Notes under the pieces: generated by a model
What the model was told of the DNA's origin: nothing
Databases searched by the model: none
What the model saw: only the letters and a program-made list of their open reading frames with translations
Shown here: positions 40,769 through 49,237 of the stretch, in pieces
Position numbering within the stretch: position 1 is the stretch's first letter
Layout: each line of letters opens with the position of its first letter
Assembly: GCA_903821995.1 (NCBI GenBank)
Contig: CAIJNI010000068.1
Coordinates: 1 to 64,000, forward strand
Reading direction: 5' to 3'
Length of the DNA: 64,000 nt
DNA from: an uncultured beta proteobacterium
GTDB lineage: Bacteria; Pseudomonadota; Gammaproteobacteria; Burkholderiales; Burkholderiaceae
Position numbers and translations under genes: made by a program

Positions 40769-41548
40769 ATGACGGAAAAAATACCAATTAATACCCTATT
40801 AGTAGAGGAGCGCCGCTTAGGAGGTGTTTCAAAACTTTATGGAGAGACGGCCTTTGAGCATTTAAAGAAGATGCATGTCGTTGTTATTGGTCTAGGTGGC
40901 GTTGGATCTTGGGCTGCAGAAGCCTTAGCAAGAAGTGCAGTAGGAGAAATAACCCTTATTGATTTTGACCATATATCGATCAGCAACACCAATCGTCAAC
41001 TGCATGCTTTAGATGGTGAGTACGGTAAAGCAAAAGTGGAAGCCATGTCACAGCGTCTTAAAAAAATAAATCCAGAACTCATTATTCATGAAGTTGATGA
41101 ATTTGTTAAACCAGAAAATATTGAGGCTCTTTTACCTAAGTCAGCGGTCATTCTTGATGCCACTGATGATTTTTTGAGTAAAGTATCTCTTGCTGTATGG
41201 TGCCATAAAAATGCCATCCCACTGGTTATTAGTGGAGGTGCAGGAGGGAAAATTGATCCCACAAAAATTCAAATTGATGATCTATCAAAAGCCACGCATG
41301 ATCCGCTGCTATCGAAAATGCGAGGTATTTTGCGTAAAGAGTACGGTTTTGAGAAAGATCCTCAGAATAAGATGAAACTCAGGGTAGTCTATTCTTCGGA
41401 ACCACGTTTAGGTGTAGCTCTTGGTGGGTTAGCTTGTAGTGGTTATGGCTCTGCTGTAACGGTGACAGCAAGCTTTGGTTTGGCAGCGGCAGCTGAGGCT
41501 ATGCGATTAGGGGTAGTAATGGCCTCCGAATTACAAAAAACGATCTAA
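40769..41548 (+). CDS. tcdA: tRNA threonylcarbamoyladenosine dehydratase (ThiF/E1-like)
   Basis: [44 protein letters not shown]. Confidence 0.92.
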
Positions 41549-41992
41549 AACCTTTTTGCTAAATTTGTCTAAATTTTTCTGATGTCTAATGAAATATTGA
41601 ATTCCATTAGCATCCGTAATAATGAGGCTATCTGTACCCACTCTGCGAAGATCTTGCTCGCTGTTTAGCTTTAACTTTGTTTTACCTCTATCCGTATTGA
41701 TTTCCCATACGCTAGGCAAGGCAAAGGAGTTAAGTCCTGTGATCTTTTCTATTTCGGGAATAAATTCCATTTGGGCTAATTCGTTTTTAAGAATTTCTTG
41801 TGTGCAGGAGCTCAGTTGATCGAGGTGATCTAGCCAAACCAGTTCATGTCCATCTTGATTAAGAATTGAAATTCCTTGAAGGGGCTCTGAAATTGGAAAA
41901 GCCCTCACAACTTTTACATTCTCATGGTAGGCGCCATTCTCATCTATTAAATGAAGACATCCAAATTGATCGACATTAAATGAAATATTCAC
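41531..41992 (-). CDS. Cyanophycin-associated DUF1854-like protein
   Basis: EINTDRGKTKLKLNSEQDLRRVGTDSLIITDANGIQYFIRH; position next to the ABC exporter and cphA genes. Confidence 0.75.
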   Translation of the reverse strand: MNISFNVDQFGCLHLIDENGAYHENVKVVRAFPISEPLQGISILNQDGHELVWLDHLDQLSSCTQEILKNELAQMEFIPEIEKITGLNSFALPSVWEINTDRGKTKLKLNSEQDLRRVGTDSLIITDANGIQYFIRHQKNLDKFSKKVLDRFL

Positions 41993-44280
41993 TCTGCAAC
42001 CTCATCAAAATCAGTACTGCCAGCAATTTCGGCAGCATGTCGAGCTTGAGCCTGATATAACTGAAAGTAGGCCCCCCGGCTTTTCATTAATTCATCATGA
42101 CTTCCAACTTCTACAATTTCACCTTTATCCATAACAATGAGGCGATTAGCTTTACGTAAGGTGGATAGTCGATGAGCAATTGCAATAGTAGTTCTACCTT
42201 GCACTAAATTGTCTAAGGCTTTCTGAATTTCTTTTTCAGTAGTAGTGTCCACAGATGAAGTTGCTTCATCTAGTATAAGAATTTTAGGATTAATGAGAAG
42301 TGCACGCGCAATAGAAATTCTTTGGCGTTCACCACCAGAAAGTGACTGTCCTCGTTCACCGACTAAAGAATCGTAGCCTAAGGGTAGTCGCAAAATAAAT
42401 TCATGAGCATTTGCTGCGCGAGAAGCTTCTACAATCTCTTCCTTAGTGGCATCTGGTTTTCCATAAGCTATATTTTCAGCGATCGTCCCAAAAAATAAGA
42501 AAGGTTCTTGCAAAACCAAACCAAAGAACTTCCTAAGTTCCTTGATGGCAATTGATCTGACATCGAAACCGTCGATTAAAACAGCACCCTCGCTGACATC
42601 ATAAAAGCGACAAATTAAATTCACAAGAGTACTTTTTCCTGAGCCACTATGACCAACTAGTCCGATCATTTCGCCGGGTGCAATATCTAAATTTATATTT
42701 TTTATGACTGCGCGATTGCCATATCTGAATCCAACCTGTTTTAATTGGATGGATCCAGTGACATGACTAACTTTTACAGGGTTTAATGATTCAGGAACAC
42801 TTGACTTGTGATCTAAAATATCAAATAGACGTTTTGCTCCTGCAGCAGCTTTTTGAGTATGGGAGACTATTCTACTCATGGAATCCATACGACCATAAAA
42901 TCTACTGATATAGGCCAAAAAGGCAGATAAAACTCCTACAGTAATATTATCGTGGGCTACTTGCCAAATCCCAAATCCCCAGACCACTAGGAGTCCAACT
43001 TCAGTTAATAGGGTAACGGTTGGAGCAAAAACTGACCATGTCCGATTCACTCGGTCATTGATGGCTAAATTGCGTTTATTCGCCTCAAGGAAGCGATTAT
43101 TTTCTCGATCTTCCTGTGCAAATGCTTTGACGACTCTAATGCCAGGGATGGTGTCGGAGAGAATATTTGTGACCTCTGCCCAGTTGCGATCCACTTTTTC
43201 AAAACCAAAGCGTAGTTTATCTCTAACAATGTGGATCATCCAAGCAATAAAAGGTAGGGGAAGAAGAGTGACAATAGCAAGCCAGGGATCAATGCTAATC
43301 AAAATAACTGCTGTCATGATTAACATTAAAGAATCAGTAGCAAAATCCAATAAATGCAGTGATAAAAAAACACAAATTCGATCTGTTTCATTACCGATAC
43401 GGGCGATGAGATCACCCGTTCGTTTTGCGCCAAAATACTCCAGTGACATATTCAAAAGATGCTCAAAGGTTGTTGTTCGAAGCTTTGCGCCAATACGCTC
43501 ACTCACTAGGGCTAGGATATACGTTTTCCACCAGCCAAGGCCCCAGGCAAATAGTGCGGCAAAGAGTAGAGCGCCTAAATACTTTCCTGCCAGTTCATAT
43601 TGCATGACATGAGTGGTTTGAAATGGAATTAGAACCTCATCCATGAGAGGCATAGCAATATATGGCGGGATTAATGTAGCGGTAGTTGCTGCTAGGGTTA
43701 ATAAAAACCCCAATATTAATTGACCTTTATACGGTTTTGCAAAGCGCCACAATTTTAATAAGGTAAGAGTTGAAGGCGGGATCTCATTTTCCGGATCGCA
43801 GACCAGGCAATGGTCTACATTTTCAGGAATGAGGCTTTGGCATAAGGGACAGATTTGAACTAGACGGTTTATAGTTTCTAGTGAGTTTGCTTGCTCATTT
43901 GACCTCTGTCGCTCGGGGAATATTTTTTGAAACTGGTTAATTGCTTGATTGATGGCTAGAGTGTGGTTCCAAGTAGCCACCTTTCGTGAAGCTGTTTGAA
44001 GTGACAAATGCCCAACACCCGCATGGTCAAAATGACTTAAAAAGGCGTCGTCTTCGAGAATCCAGCTCTCAGATTCACCGTCTTCATGAAATACATCAAT
44101 GCGATGGTGCCAGAGGACTAGTAGCGATTTAGAAAAATGTAAGTGATTATTTAAGTCTAATTCGACCCAACACAGCGGCCCCACTTTGCTTTTGCCAATA
44201 ATCAGTTTTGCCACGGCCGAGTTTTGCCAAGTGCTCGGAAGCAAAACGGGAAAAGAGGGGGTATCACGAATCTCAGACAT
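41989..44280 (-). CDS. ABC exporter (TMD-NBD fusion) with N-terminal extension and zinc ribbon, cyanophycin-associated
   Basis: GHSGSGKSTLVNLICRFYDVSEG, LSGGERQRISIARALLINPKILILDEATSSVD; CPLCQSLIPENVDHCLVC upstream of the TMD. Confidence 0.9.
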   Translation of the reverse strand: MSEIRDTPSFPVLLPSTWQNSAVAKLIIGKSKVGPLCWVELDLNNHLHFSKSLLVLWHHRIDVFHEDGESESWILEDDAFLSHFDHAGVGHLSLQTASRKVATWNHTLAINQAINQFQKIFPERQRSNEQANSLETINRLVQICPLCQSLIPENVDHCLVCDPENEIPPSTLTLLKLWRFAKPYKGQLILGFLLTLAATTATLIPPYIAMPLMDEVLIPFQTTHVMQYELAGKYLGALLFAALFAWGLGWWKTYILALVSERIGAKLRTTTFEHLLNMSLEYFGAKRTGDLIARIGNETDRICVFLSLHLLDFATDSLMLIMTAVILISIDPWLAIVTLLPLPFIAWMIHIVRDKLRFGFEKVDRNWAEVTNILSDTIPGIRVVKAFAQEDRENNRFLEANKRNLAINDRVNRTWSVFAPTVTLLTEVGLLVVWGFGIWQVAHDNITVGVLSAFLAYISRFYGRMDSMSRIVSHTQKAAAGAKRLFDILDHKSSVPESLNPVKVSHVTGSIQLKQVGFRYGNRAVIKNINLDIAPGEMIGLVGHSGSGKSTLVNLICRFYDVSEGAVLIDGFDVRSIAIKELRKFFGLVLQEPFLFFGTIAENIAYGKPDATKEEIVEASRAANAHEFILRLPLGYDSLVGERGQSLSGGERQRISIARALLINPKILILDEATSSVDTTTEKEIQKALDNLVQGRTTIAIAHRLSTLRKANRLIVMDKGEIVEVGSHDELMKSRGAYFQLYQAQARHAAEIAGSTDFDEVAE

Positions 44281-44488: not shown

Positions 44489-46663
44489 ATGCCTCAACTA
44501 CTTGATAAGACTATAGAAGTCCTTAAAATCAAGTACATCCGTGGGCCAAACATGTGGACCTGGGTTCCTGTGATTGAGGCTTGGGTAGATATTGGTGATT
44601 TGGAAAACTTTCCTTCAGACAAAATTCCTGGTTTCTATGAGCGCCTCATTTCAACAATGCCTAGTTTGATAGAACACAGGTGTAGTTATGAAGTGCGTGG
44701 TGGATTTCTCAAAAGAGTTGAGGAAGGGACATGGCCTGGCCACATTTTAGAGCATTTAACTTTGGAGCTTTTAGGGCTTGCTGGCTTGGAAGTAGGGTTT
44801 GGTCGAGCCCGAGAAACTAGTGTGACGGGTGTCTACAAAATCATTATTGCAGCACCTCAAGAAGATGTGGTTTACAGGGCGATTTTAGAAGCAAAAGAAC
44901 TATTACTTGCTTTGATACAGGATCGTGGCTTTGACCTTGAAAAATCACTCGTGTACTTAAAAGATCTTGTAGAGGATCTGTGTTTAGGGCCAAGTACAGG
45001 GTGTATTGTTGCTGCCGCAAAGGAGAATAGAATCCCATCGATTCGGCTAACTAAAGGCAATTTAGTGCAACTTGGTTACGGCGCAAAGCAAAGGCGTATT
45101 TGGACGGCTGAGACAGATCAAACAAGTGCTATAGCGGAATCAATTTCACGAGATAAAGATTTAACTAAAAACCTCCTAACTTCCCTGGGCGTTCCAGTTC
45201 CTATGGGACAAATTGTTGCGAGTAGTGAGTCTGCCTGGGAGGTAGCGCAAGATCTAGGCTTACCTGTTGTAGTAAAACCGCAGGATGGTAATCATGGTAG
45301 AGGGGTATTTACTAATTTGTTTACCCAAGAGGAAATCACTTCTGCTTATGAGGTAGCCCTGCAAGAAGGTAGCGGTGTGATTGTAGAAAAATTTATATTA
45401 GGAGATGAGCATCGGCTATTGGTTGTGGGTGATCAAGTTGTTGCTGCAGCAAAAGGAGAATCTGCCTGGGTAACCGGAGACGGAATACATTCTGTTGATG
45501 AGTTGATTCAAATTCAGATTAACATTGATCCACGTCGTGGTCCAACAGAAGATTTCCCGCTAAATCTTGTACGAATTGATTCGGCAGCCCTTTTTGAACT
45601 CAAGCGCCAGGGCTTTTTGCCTGAAGGTGTTCCACTGAAGGGGCATGCTGTTTTGATTCAGCGCAATGGTAATGTTTCAATTGATGTGACCGATCAAGTC
45701 CATCCACTAGTTGCTAAAAGAGTAGTTCTTGCCGCAAAAATTGTTGGACTAGATGTAGCGGGAGTTGACTTAGTTATTCAGGATATTTCAAGACCATTGG
45801 AAGAGCAGGGTGGTGCTATTGTTGAAGTCAATGCTGGTCCAGGCTTACTAATGCATCTAAAACCTGCACAAGGAAAGCCTAGGGCAGTAGGTCAGGCAAT
45901 CATCAAGCACCTATTTCCAGATCCAGAAAGTTGCCGTATTCCTTTAATAGGAATTACAGGATCTATAGGAGCTTCTTTCGTAGCTGAAATGTCAGCGCAT
46001 ATTCTTAAATTAGCCAATTTTTATGTTGGGCTTGTGTCACAACAAGGTTTGTTTTTTAACCAACGTTTAGTTGAAAAAAATAACGATGCCTCATGGGCTT
46101 TGTCGCGACGAGTGGTGATGAACCGAATGGTGACTGCGGCTGTCATTGAGGCTACTCCTCTATCAATTCTTAACGAAGGCTTAGCTTACGATCTATGTAA
46201 GATTGGCGTAATTACAAATATTGATAAAAATATCTTCTTTCCAGAAGAGTCAATCAATGATGAAGACGGCTTATTTAAAGTCTTTCGAACTCAAGTTGAT
46301 GTTGTTTTACCTGAAGGGACTGCTGTACTTAATGCGCAGGATCCTATGATTGTTGAGATGACTGACCTGTGTCTTGGCGAAATTATTTTTTATGCTGAAG
46401 ATATGAATCATCCAGTTTTACAACAAAGAATTGCTCTTAATAAAAAAATTATTTGTCGGCAAGAAAATTCGATTATTTTGCAAGAGGGGAAACAACATAT
46501 TTGGAGTTTTGATTTAGGATTAGTGAGATTTATGAATAATAAGCTTGCCGAGCCAATCGGTGAACTAATGGCAGTGATTGGCGTATGCTGGGGCTTAGAT
46601 TTAGATTTTCAATTGATAGAAGCAGGATTGGAAACTTTTACTGTAGAAAAGTTGGAGGCTTAA
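44489..46663 (+). CDS. Cyanophycin synthetase-like paralog (CphA'), degenerate Mur-ligase P-loop
   Basis: IRGPNMWTWVPVIEAW N-domain; ATP-grasp VVKPQDGNHGRGV; the C-domain has GITGSIGASF where GTNGKTTT is expected. Confidence 0.88.
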   Translation: MPQLLDKTIEVLKIKYIRGPNMWTWVPVIEAWVDIGDLENFPSDKIPGFYERLISTMPSLIEHRCSYEVRGGFLKRVEEGTWPGHILEHLTLELLGLAGLEVGFGRARETSVTGVYKIIIAAPQEDVVYRAILEAKELLLALIQDRGFDLEKSLVYLKDLVEDLCLGPSTGCIVAAAKENRIPSIRLTKGNLVQLGYGAKQRRIWTAETDQTSAIAESISRDKDLTKNLLTSLGVPVPMGQIVASSESAWEVAQDLGLPVVVKPQDGNHGRGVFTNLFTQEEITSAYEVALQEGSGVIVEKFILGDEHRLLVVGDQVVAAAKGESAWVTGDGIHSVDELIQIQINIDPRRGPTEDFPLNLVRIDSAALFELKRQGFLPEGVPLKGHAVLIQRNGNVSIDVTDQVHPLVAKRVVLAAKIVGLDVAGVDLVIQDISRPLEEQGGAIVEVNAGPGLLMHLKPAQGKPRAVGQAIIKHLFPDPESCRIPLIGITGSIGASFVAEMSAHILKLANFYVGLVSQQGLFFNQRLVEKNNDASWALSRRVVMNRMVTAAVIEATPLSILNEGLAYDLCKIGVITNIDKNIFFPEESINDEDGLFKVFRTQVDVVLPEGTAVLNAQDPMIVEMTDLCLGEIIFYAEDMNHPVLQQRIALNKKIICRQENSIILQEGKQHIWSFDLGLVRFMNNKLAEPIGELMAVIGVCWGLDLDFQLIEAGLETFTVEKLEA

Positions 46664-49237
46664 TTGGAAGTCCAAAGAATTCGCGCATTAAGAGGGCCTA
46701 ACTTATGGAGCCGCCATACTGCTATTGAAGCAATCATTGAGTGCGCCCCAAATGAGCGATCCATTGAGAACTTAAATGAATTTGAAGTTAGATTAAGAGT
46801 CCTTTTCCCACAATTACGCTTAATGCGTTTAGGAAGTTATGATGAAGTCATCTCTATGGCTCACGTCGTGGAGCACGTAGTTTTAGGGCTACAAGCACAA
46901 GCAAGTTGTCCTGTGACCTTTAGTCGAACAGTTAAGACTAGTGAAGAGGGAATTTATCAAGTTATTGTTGAGTATAGTGAAGAAGCTGTCGGTCGTTTAG
47001 CATTTGAGATGGCCATGCGGATTATTGCTGCTGCGTTAAATGATGAACCTTTTGATTTGAATAAAGCTTTAAAAGAACTTACCGATTTAGATGAAGATGT
47101 TCGTTTGGGTCCGAGTACAGGTTCGATTGTTCAAGCTGCGGTAGAAAAAAATATTCCTTATCGCAGAATGACTGATGGCAGCATGGTTCAATTTGGATGG
47201 GGTAGTAAACAAAAACGTATTCAGGCTGCTGAGACGAGTGATACCAGTGCAATTGCTGAAGCGATTGCACAGGACAAGGAGTTAACGAAAGAATTACTGC
47301 ATGCCGCGGGTGTATCTGTGCCCTTAGGTAAGGTCGTCACTACAGTAGAAGAAGCCTGGGCAGTTGCTCAGGAACTAGGTCGAACGATAGTAATAAAACC
47401 CAAAGATGGCAATCAAGGTAAAGGGGTTGCAGTTAATATTCAATCTGAGGATCAAGTTCGGCAAGCTTTTGAAGTTGCAAAAAATTATGGTTCAAAAATC
47501 ATTGTAGAGCGCTACTTACCTGGGCAAGACTTTAGGCTACTTGTTGTGGGAGATCATCTAGTTGCCGCTTCTAGACGAGATCCACCTCAAGTGATTGGGG
47601 ATGGCGTATTAACTATTCAAGAGCTTGTTGATCAGGTGAACCTTGATCCTCTTCGTGGGGATGGACACGCTACACCGTTGACAAAAATTCGCCTTGATGA
47701 CATTGCAATTGCAACGTTAGCGAAGCAAGATTTAAATACGCATTCTGTTCCAAGAAATGGCGCACGTATTATTCTTAGAAATAATGCAAACTTAAGTACG
47801 GGCGGAAGTGCAACCGATGTCACAGATGACGTTCATCCGGAAATGGCAGCGAGTGCTGTTGCAGCTGCCAAAATGGTTGGATTAGATATATGCGGAGTCG
47901 ATATCGTATGTGAAGCTGTTTATAAACCACTTGAGGAACAAGGGGGTGGGATTGTTGAGGTCAATGCTGCTCCGGGACTTAGGATGCACTTAAATCCATC
48001 TTATGGAAAAAGTCGTCCAGTGGGTGAAGCAATTATTAACACGATGTTTCCTCATGAAGAAAATGCTCGCATACCAGTCGTGGCGGTAACAGGAACTAAT
48101 GGTAAGACGACAACTGTTAGGTTAATTGCTCACATCATGAAACAAAACAAGTGGCGAGTTGGAATGACAACCACAGATGGTGTTTATGTTGAGGATGAGC
48201 GAATTGATACAGGTGATTGTAGCGGGCCTAAAAGCGCAAAAAATATACTAATGCATCCTGAAGTCGATGCGGCAGTATTTGAGACTGCTCGAGGAGGGAT
48301 ACTTCGAGAGGGTCTTGGATTTGACATGTGCCAAGTTGCAGTTGTCACAAATATCGGACAAGGTGATCATTTAGGAATGAGCTATATCTCAACTGTTGAA
48401 GAATTAGCGGTTGTTAAACAGGTTGTAGTTCAAAATGTTTCCCCATCGGGCATGGCTGTTCTTAATGCAAGCGATGCCAATGTGGTGAAGATGGCTAAGA
48501 CGTGTCGTGGAGCGGTCACTTTTTTTGCGATGAACCCTCATCATCCTGTGATATCAACCCATCGCGCTCATGGTAATAGAGTGATCTATGCGGATCAAGA
48601 CGCAATTATCGTTGCAATAGGTAACTCAGTCATTCAAAAAATTCCTTTCGCAGAGATCCCATTAACCGATTCTGGCCGATTAGGGTTTCAAATTGAAAAT
48701 GTCATGGCAGCTATAGGTGCGGTTTGGGCAATCGATATAGACTGGTCTAGGATACTTCAGGGTTTAAGCCATTTTGTGAGCACAACTGAAAGTGCCCCTG
48801 GTCGATTTAATATCTTTAAACATAATGGCGCTACTGTGATTGCTGATTATGGGCATAATCCTGACGCCATCAGAGCGCTGGTGAGTGCTACAAATGCCAT
48901 AGAAGCTAAAGAGAGATATGTCGTCATTAGTGGCGCCGGAGATCGCCGAGACGATGATATCCGAGAGCAAACCAAGTTATTAGGCGCCGCTTTTGATCAT
49001 GCAATTTTGTATCAAGATCAATGTCAACGAGGTAGGGAAGATGGAGAAGTGATAGCGCTTCTTAGAGATGGTCTTGTGGGCGCTAAGAAAACAAAATTCA
49101 TTGAGGAAATTCGGGGTGAGTTTTTAGCCATAGATACAGCATTAGAAAAATTAAAGCCTGAAGACCTATGCTTAATCCTGATTGATCAAGTAGAAGAATC
49201 ACTTGAATATTTGTCAAAGGTAACAAAATCTAAATAA
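46664..49237 (+). CDS. cphA: Cyanophycin synthetase
   Basis: LRGPNLWSRHTAIEA, VIKPKDGNQGKGVAVN, VAVTGTNGKTTTVRLIAHI, ETARGGILREGLGFD; TTG start with GGAGG upstream. Confidence 0.94.
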   Translation: MEVQRIRALRGPNLWSRHTAIEAIIECAPNERSIENLNEFEVRLRVLFPQLRLMRLGSYDEVISMAHVVEHVVLGLQAQASCPVTFSRTVKTSEEGIYQVIVEYSEEAVGRLAFEMAMRIIAAALNDEPFDLNKALKELTDLDEDVRLGPSTGSIVQAAVEKNIPYRRMTDGSMVQFGWGSKQKRIQAAETSDTSAIAEAIAQDKELTKELLHAAGVSVPLGKVVTTVEEAWAVAQELGRTIVIKPKDGNQGKGVAVNIQSEDQVRQAFEVAKNYGSKIIVERYLPGQDFRLLVVGDHLVAASRRDPPQVIGDGVLTIQELVDQVNLDPLRGDGHATPLTKIRLDDIAIATLAKQDLNTHSVPRNGARIILRNNANLSTGGSATDVTDDVHPEMAASAVAAAKMVGLDICGVDIVCEAVYKPLEEQGGGIVEVNAAPGLRMHLNPSYGKSRPVGEAIINTMFPHEENARIPVVAVTGTNGKTTTVRLIAHIMKQNKWRVGMTTTDGVYVEDERIDTGDCSGPKSAKNILMHPEVDAAVFETARGGILREGLGFDMCQVAVVTNIGQGDHLGMSYISTVEELAVVKQVVVQNVSPSGMAVLNASDANVVKMAKTCRGAVTFFAMNPHHPVISTHRAHGNRVIYADQDAIIVAIGNSVIQKIPFAEIPLTDSGRLGFQIENVMAAIGAVWAIDIDWSRILQGLSHFVSTTESAPGRFNIFKHNGATVIADYGHNPDAIRALVSATNAIEAKERYVVISGAGDRRDDDIREQTKLLGAAFDHAILYQDQCQRGREDGEVIALLRDGLVGAKKTKFIEEIRGEFLAIDTALEKLKPEDLCLILIDQVEESLEYLSKVTKSK

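Follow-up and report, generated by a model that had tools for sequence, protein, structure and literature searches.

Two adjacent genes, cphA' and cphA, on a contig of an uncultured beta proteobacterium encode cyanophycin synthetase-like proteins that have lost opposite active sites, so that each protein probably needs the other. The N, G and M sites that CphA1 carries on one chain are here divided between the two: CphA' lacks the Asp recognition and the working M site of CphA1, and CphA lacks its N site. We propose, with moderate confidence, that one cyanophycin synthetase is built from CphA' and CphA as specialised subunits, each of which depends on the other. The window (the whole stretch of 64,000 nucleotides analysed, from contig CAIJNI010000068.1) carries both genes on the forward strand. 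Here, we describe the pattern of residues and how far it is conserved, along with the co-occurrence of the two genes and the phylogeny of the pair, and we weigh other ways in which the work might be shared.

Features of the cphA'-cphA locus (positions are those of the window)
Feature	Position	Strand	Remarks
'Cyanophycin metabolism-associated DUF1854 family protein' (NF052234)	41531..41992	-	4-base overlap with the ABC gene
'Cyanophycin metabolism-associated ABC transporter' (NF052233)	41989..44280	-	exporter-type; divergent from cphA'; 1282.8 bits, cut-off 880
cphA' gene, 724 aa	44489..46663	+	N-domain peptidase site kept; M-domain core degenerate; no lid
CphA' N domain, primer-generating metallopeptidase motif Cx19HxxEH, CSYEVRGGFLKRVEEGTWPGHILEH	44681..44755	+	aligned C-H-E-H, 126/126 CphA'
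CphA' G-domain P-loop VVKPQDGNHGRGV	45269..45307	+	holds His267 equivalent; alignment
CphA' G-domain segment AAAKGESA	45443..45466	+	Arg323 to Gly; alignment
CphA' shortened G-omega loop NGNVSIDVTD	45665..45694	+	alignment
CphA' GPGLLMHL	45836..45859	+	Arg458 to Leu; alignment
CphA' degenerate M-domain P-loop GITGSIGASFVAE	45950..45988	+	alignment to TeCphA1
CphA' degenerate M-domain motif EATPLSILNEGLAYD	46148..46192	+	Glu558 kept, Arg561 lost
cphA'/cphA junction	46653..46666	+	GGAGG, Shine-Dalgarno-like, inside cphA' end; TAA 46661-46663; TTG start 46664-46666
cphA gene, 857 aa	46664..49237	+	N-domain metal site lost; G-domain Asp-recognition residues, M domain and lid intact
CphA N-motif remnant RLGSYDEVISMAHVVEH	46826..46876	+	HxxEH there; Cys and surrounding segment deleted
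CphA G-domain P-loop VIKPKDGNQGKGV	47390..47428	+	His267 to Gln; alignment
CphA intact M-domain P-loop AVTGTNGKTTTVRL	48083..48124	+	alignment
CphA counterpart ETARGGILREGLGFD of degenerate CphA' motif EATPLSILNEGLAYD	48281..48325	+	alignment

Active sites of the two proteins

CphA' shares the N-G-M architecture and the fold of CphA1 (NF010623 / TIGR02068; PDB 7LG5, 7WAE), to which it is 34-36% identical over about 725 columns in the structure search. It retains the N motif and the ATP site of the G domain, and scores 684 bits where the equivalog cut-off of TIGR02068 is 850. The initial annotation had claimed that CphA' has lost its Mur-ligase ATP site, and motifs, Pfam scores and residue changes all agree with this. 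In particular, GSIGASF stands where GTNGKTT is expected, which leaves no usable Mur-ligase P-loop, and comparison with TeCphA1 gives Lys499 to Ala, Thr500 to Ser, Arg561 to Pro, Asp585 to Ile and His586 to Phe (M-domain sites are numbered as in TeCphA1/SuCphA1). Mutation of Lys499 to Ala impairs TeCphA1 (PMC9427784), and in SuCphA1 the Asp585Ala/His586Ala double change serves as the standard M-dead mutant (PMC9262961). The C-terminal lid is absent from CphA' when it is aligned to solved CphA1 enzymes; Pfam Mur_ligase_M reaches 18.5 bits, under its cut-off of 24, and the profile search gave no Mur_ligase_C match. The reported shortfall of 133 aa relative to CphA is exact, and the P-loop motifs run further than the 45950-45979 (CphA') and 48092-48115 (CphA) first assigned to them.

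The AlphaFold model of CphA' has a mean pLDDT of 84 and its Mur-type core is folded with high confidence; as modelled, the M domain is a folded one without a normal ATP site. The reading frames of cphA' and cphA are both open. Given the open frame, and given that the closest relatives (L005 and L006) show decay of these motifs too, a sequencing slip is an unlikely source of the changed M motif.

The N domain of CphA' has a complete CphA1-type motif, C65-x19-H85-x2-E88-H89, the counterpart of the residues that make up the primer-making metallopeptidase of SuCphA1 (Cys59, His79, Glu82, His83). The G domain is a more complex case. The ATP-grasp region had been called intact, and this stands for its ATP-binding and catalytic part but not for the Asp-recognition elements, which are gone. 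That is, the domain is ATP-competent by sequence, with the ATP/Mg residues and Arg309 in place, and the CphA1-type elements of Asp recognition (Arg323, the Asn394/Ser396 loop and Arg458) are missing, a five-residue deletion in the G-omega loop having taken out the ANLSTGG Asp-binding loop. In TeCphA1, the beta-carboxylate of the incoming Asp is bound by Arg323 and Asn394, its alpha-carboxylate is bound by Arg458 and Ser396 lines the pocket; replacing Asn394, Arg323 or Arg458 by Ala impairs the enzyme (PMC9427784).

The partner CphA has the M domain, lid and G-domain Asp recognition of CphA1 (Mur_ligase_M 75.8 bits, Mur_ligase_C 57.3 bits) and lacks the N-domain peptidase motif, which is present in 83% of CphA1 nr70 (PMC9262961). 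This loss does not remove it from CphA1, because primer-dependent CphA1s exist. Its TTG start is consistent with the N-terminal alignment to TeCphA1. Translation of cphA' and cphA is probably coupled, because the TAA stop directly abuts this start, with GGAGG just upstream inside cphA'.

The two genes on the opposite strand complete a four-gene module (cphA', cphA, ABC transporter, DUF1854). No cyanophycinase was recognised in the window's genome, an absence that is provisional as the genome is 93% complete. Within 41531-44280 on the reverse strand, the ABC exporter has an N-terminal extension with a CxxC...CxxC zinc-ribbon-like stretch, CPLCQSLIPENVDHCLVC. No paper mentioning the DUF1854 family was found in the literature searched.

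Relatives and conservation of the pair

A scan of genome contigs retrieved 80 loci, nearly all betaproteobacterial, and every one with enough contig had cphA' followed directly by cphA in the same order. Among 300 sampled genomes of the order, 115 had matches and nearly all of these carried two; of the few single-match genomes, some had a stand-alone CphA1, and in others the contig ended within the locus or the reading frame was interrupted. We added loci from many families and stand-alone CphA1 from the same order, from other gammaproteobacteria, and from alphaproteobacteria, Deinococcus and Chryseobacterium. The residue census was made on 126 CphA', 120 pair CphA and 16 stand-alone CphA1. 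One single match, in genome G200, was considered as an orphan CphA and rejected as a divergent ATP-grasp protein, and the two matches examined from a viral contig scan aimed at cyanobacterial CphA2 (L188, L191) turned out to be distant ATP-grasp proteins of other kinds.

The census reveals a nearly complete division of sites. The aligned C-H-E-H motif is found in 126/126 CphA', 0/120 pair CphA and 15/16 stand-alone CphA1; the N domain of pair CphA has a deletion spanning the Cys and its surroundings, and its HxxEH is being eroded. The pattern is inverted for Asp recognition: the ANLSTGG loop occurs in none of the 126 CphA', in 119/120 pair CphA and in 14/16 stand-alone enzymes, and Arg458 in 0/126, 120/120 and 16/16, its place in CphA' being taken by Leu or by Ile, Met, Ala or Gln. 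Arg323 is kept in all 120 pair CphA and is Gly in 81/81 CphA' assigned by BLAST; about 45 of the 126 CphA' (second retrieval) were assigned partly by this very change, and the Arg323 count is not independent there. Position 267 also differs, with His in 123/126 CphA', and Gln in 118 of the 120 pair CphA and His in the other two.

The M domain varies within CphA'. Asp585-His586 is found in 12/126 CphA' versus 120/120 pair CphA, and the M core averages an identity of 0.53 in CphA' versus 0.74 in matched CphA. The bias is opposite for the N domain, and the G domains are nearly equal. The loss of the M-domain P-loop is real in the window but not family-wide, as 66 of 81 close CphA' orthologues keep its Lys. 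Full-length orthologues keep NGKT/S, and some have K499 and D585/H586 intact. For example, the CphA' of L124-L131 (872-889 aa) keep NGKT and Asp-His, and for this reason the M domain of full-length CphA' may still work; the lid and M core of such proteins nevertheless evolve faster than in CphA. On the tree, full length versus truncated changes six times within CphA', so that decay of the M domain probably set in several times after the pair arose, and Asp-His retention coincides exactly with full length. Three features are old, to judge from their presence in practically all pair members: the lost Asp pocket and the intact N site of CphA', and the lost N site of CphA.

In a G-domain tree (quick method, unrooted), 51/51 CphA' form one group and 51/51 pair CphA another (support 99 each), and the stand-alone enzymes fall in neither. 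The genomes differ in content as well. DUF1854 (NF052234) is present in 36/36 pair genomes versus 0/12 stand-alone genomes, and cyanophycinase in 2/36 other pair genomes versus 12/12 stand-alone genomes (Fisher p 1e-11 and 1e-9, respectively, uncorrected for shared ancestry). That betaproteobacteria lack cyanophycinase had been noted before (PMC5178258; PMC10206079).

Several further arrangements were seen. A very divergent CphA' from another order (L140, genome G091), on a long branch and with gaps at several G-site positions, adjoins a typical pair CphA, which places the pair outside the order of the window's genome. A Chryseobacterium plasmid (L186) carries a single CphA1 with Gln267 and a partly lost N motif (C-H-I-Y); its gene is not beside a cyanophycinase, and this is a possible third arrangement. 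In the genomes of loci L132-L136, L138, L139, L141 and L142, a stand-alone CphA1 is adjoined by a shorter Mur-ligase-like gene of about 560-720 aa with intact M-site residues and without the N motif and most G-site residues; genome G269 has two such shorter genes on another contig, C5. Deinococcus plasmids NC_012528.1 and NZ_CP083456.1 carry separate genes of the 'Mur ligase family' that match CphA' in its C-terminal part only, and the same strains have a whole cphA on other plasmids.

The gene pair itself is widespread and has already been named. Krehenbrink 2002, Fueser and Steinbuechel 2007 and a 2013 gene-deletion study of Ralstonia eutropha H16 are all said to deal with cphA'. The tandem cphA of betaproteobacteria, described as 'two neighbouring copies of cphA' or, in Sideroxydans, 'CphA1, CphA2', and the Group 1 cluster of activated-sludge bacteria are apparently the same pair, with two adjacent cphA beside an ABC transporter and without cphB (PMC10687191; PMC5178258). 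Both copies are evenly expressed in Accumulibacter (PMC10687191), which speaks for the two-subunit model set out below. In these tandem-cphA papers, which treat gene content and expression, we found no mention of reciprocal site loss, of a lost Asp pocket or of a link between DUF1854 and pairs, and the literature searched yielded no account of active sites divided between the two proteins in this complementary way.

Proposed division of labour and competing readings

The initial annotation had offered CphA' as a possible structural partner of CphA, an idea strengthened by the abutting genes, their co-occurrence, the two clades and the complementary loss of active sites. From these patterns we infer a physical complex, a primer-making role for CphA' and an active G domain in CphA despite its Gln267. 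In the model that we favour, CphA would carry both polymerising activities, adding Asp by its G domain and Arg by its M domain, and would be unable to make its own primers. CphA' would supply them, its N-domain metallopeptidase cutting cyanophycin into short segments; its G domain would bind ATP and engage the chain end without recognising free Asp, and its Mur-ligase core, folded and mostly dead, would probably serve as an assembly surface. The work would have been divided once, early in the pair lineage, and the M domain of CphA' would have decayed repeatedly afterwards because CphA supplied the M activity.

Engineered enzymes provide a close analogy. A primer-dependent CphA1 no longer needed primer once SuCphA1 with dead G and M domains was supplied in trans (PMC9262961). 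A heterodimer of SuCphA1 engineered as N-G+M+/N+G-M- is also active, somewhat less so without primer (PMC9262961). The latter layout, with the peptidase site on one protomer and the synthetic sites on the other, nearly matches that of the natural pair and by analogy supports the model. The heterodimer was built from point mutants of one protein, whereas the natural pair comes from two genes, and the G site that is simply dead in the engineered protomer appears in CphA' as one with altered substrate recognition. Against the model, His267, Arg309 and the ATP/Mg residues are kept in CphA' about as strictly as in CphA, which suggests that its G domain still catalyses something; the M domain that may still work in full-length CphA' also counts against it.

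The weakest step of the model is Gln267 in CphA. His267Ala is the standard G-dead mutation of SuCphA1, and since 118/120 pair CphA have Gln there, the protein's own G domain could be weak. Gln267 seems tolerable, given Lys at this position in CphA2, Gln in the stand-alone Chryseobacterium enzyme and His in two of the pair CphA, but the doubt leaves room for a different allocation that we consider rather unlikely. Here CphA' would carry out backbone Asp ligation through His267, leaving CphA to ligate only Arg by its M domain; a composite G site may lie across a CphA'-CphA G-domain dimer. The opposed residues at 267 fit such a split, as do the lowered activity of TeCphA1 and SuCphA1 with His267Ala, the binding residue Glu215' shared across the CphA1 G-domain dimer (PMC9427784) and the about equal conservation of the two G domains. 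The assignment of CphA' as the Asp ligase and CphA as the Arg ligase is set back, although it remains a rival, by residues that CphA' has lost and CphA has kept, namely Arg323, Arg458 and the Asn394/Ser396 loop. Changing Arg323, Arg458 or Asn394 to Ala impairs TeCphA1 (PMC9427784), and CphA2 is an active ligase with Lys267.

The gene content suggests another role. Given the opposite distributions of cyanophycinase and DUF1854 in pair and stand-alone genomes, the invariant N motif of CphA' and the ABC-exporter family gene adjoining the pair here, the N-domain endopeptidase of CphA' might replace cyanophycinase, with the ABC transporter moving the fragments and the G domain only binding chains. 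We think this quite unlikely: known N-domain activity is slow and yields roughly 4-mers rather than dipeptides (PMC9262961), and other, unrecognised cyanophycinases may exist. It is, however, compatible with CphA' also being the priming subunit of our model.

CphA2 was the other comparison first proposed, with CphA' performing a single ligation of beta-Asp-Arg dipeptides. CphA2 (PDB 7TA5, Gloeothece; 8FXH/8FXI, Stanieria) does resemble CphA' in having no usable M-domain ATP site, its M domain being degenerate and its lid missing (PMC9427784). In the other features compared, the two differ. At the G site, where the Gloeothece sequence was compared at positions 267 and 323 and in the loop, CphA2 (7TA5) has Lys267, Arg323 and ANISAGG and CphA' has His267, Gly323 and a deleted loop; the Cx19HxxEH motif of CphA' is absent from CphA2 (PMC9262961); and in the structure search the best matches of the CphA' model are CphA1 structures, ahead of those of CphA2. 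Moreover, CphA2 is cyanobacterial and uses cyanophycinase products, whereas no cyanophycinase that could supply the dipeptide is recognisable in the window's genome or in 34/36 other pair genomes. Polymerisation of dipeptides by the G domain of CphA' is thus very improbable. Least credible, at a probability close to nil, is a decaying duplicate without function: the M-domain motifs vary freely and were lost several times, but the N-site residues are invariant in 126 proteins, the ATP residues of the G site are nearly so, conservation of the N and G domains is roughly as strong as in CphA and cphA' is retained beside cphA across many families, so that we rejected a pseudogene on conservation.

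Implications for cyanophycin metabolism

Cyanophycin synthetase has been described as a polymerase whose primer-making site lies on the polymerising chain itself, an arrangement in which expression cannot adjust cutting and building independently (PMC9262961). The pair lineage seems to have put the two on separate genes, which opens the primer model to genetic tests. A broader scheme, speculative and on the whole rather improbable, would recognise two cyanophycin systems. One is single-chain CphA1 with cyanophycinase. The other would be an obligate CphA'-CphA heteromer with the ABC exporter and DUF1854, in which expression sets the ratio of cutting to building, CphA' both primes and mobilises, and either its altered G domain joins a compound other than Asp to the ends of chains or the cells export the polymer instead of storing it.

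The pair may account for some of the CphA1s without an N motif, and it sharpens the question of how betaproteobacteria, lacking cyanophycinase, mobilise the polymer. For production, it implies that a betaproteobacterial cphA expressed alone may fail without its partner.
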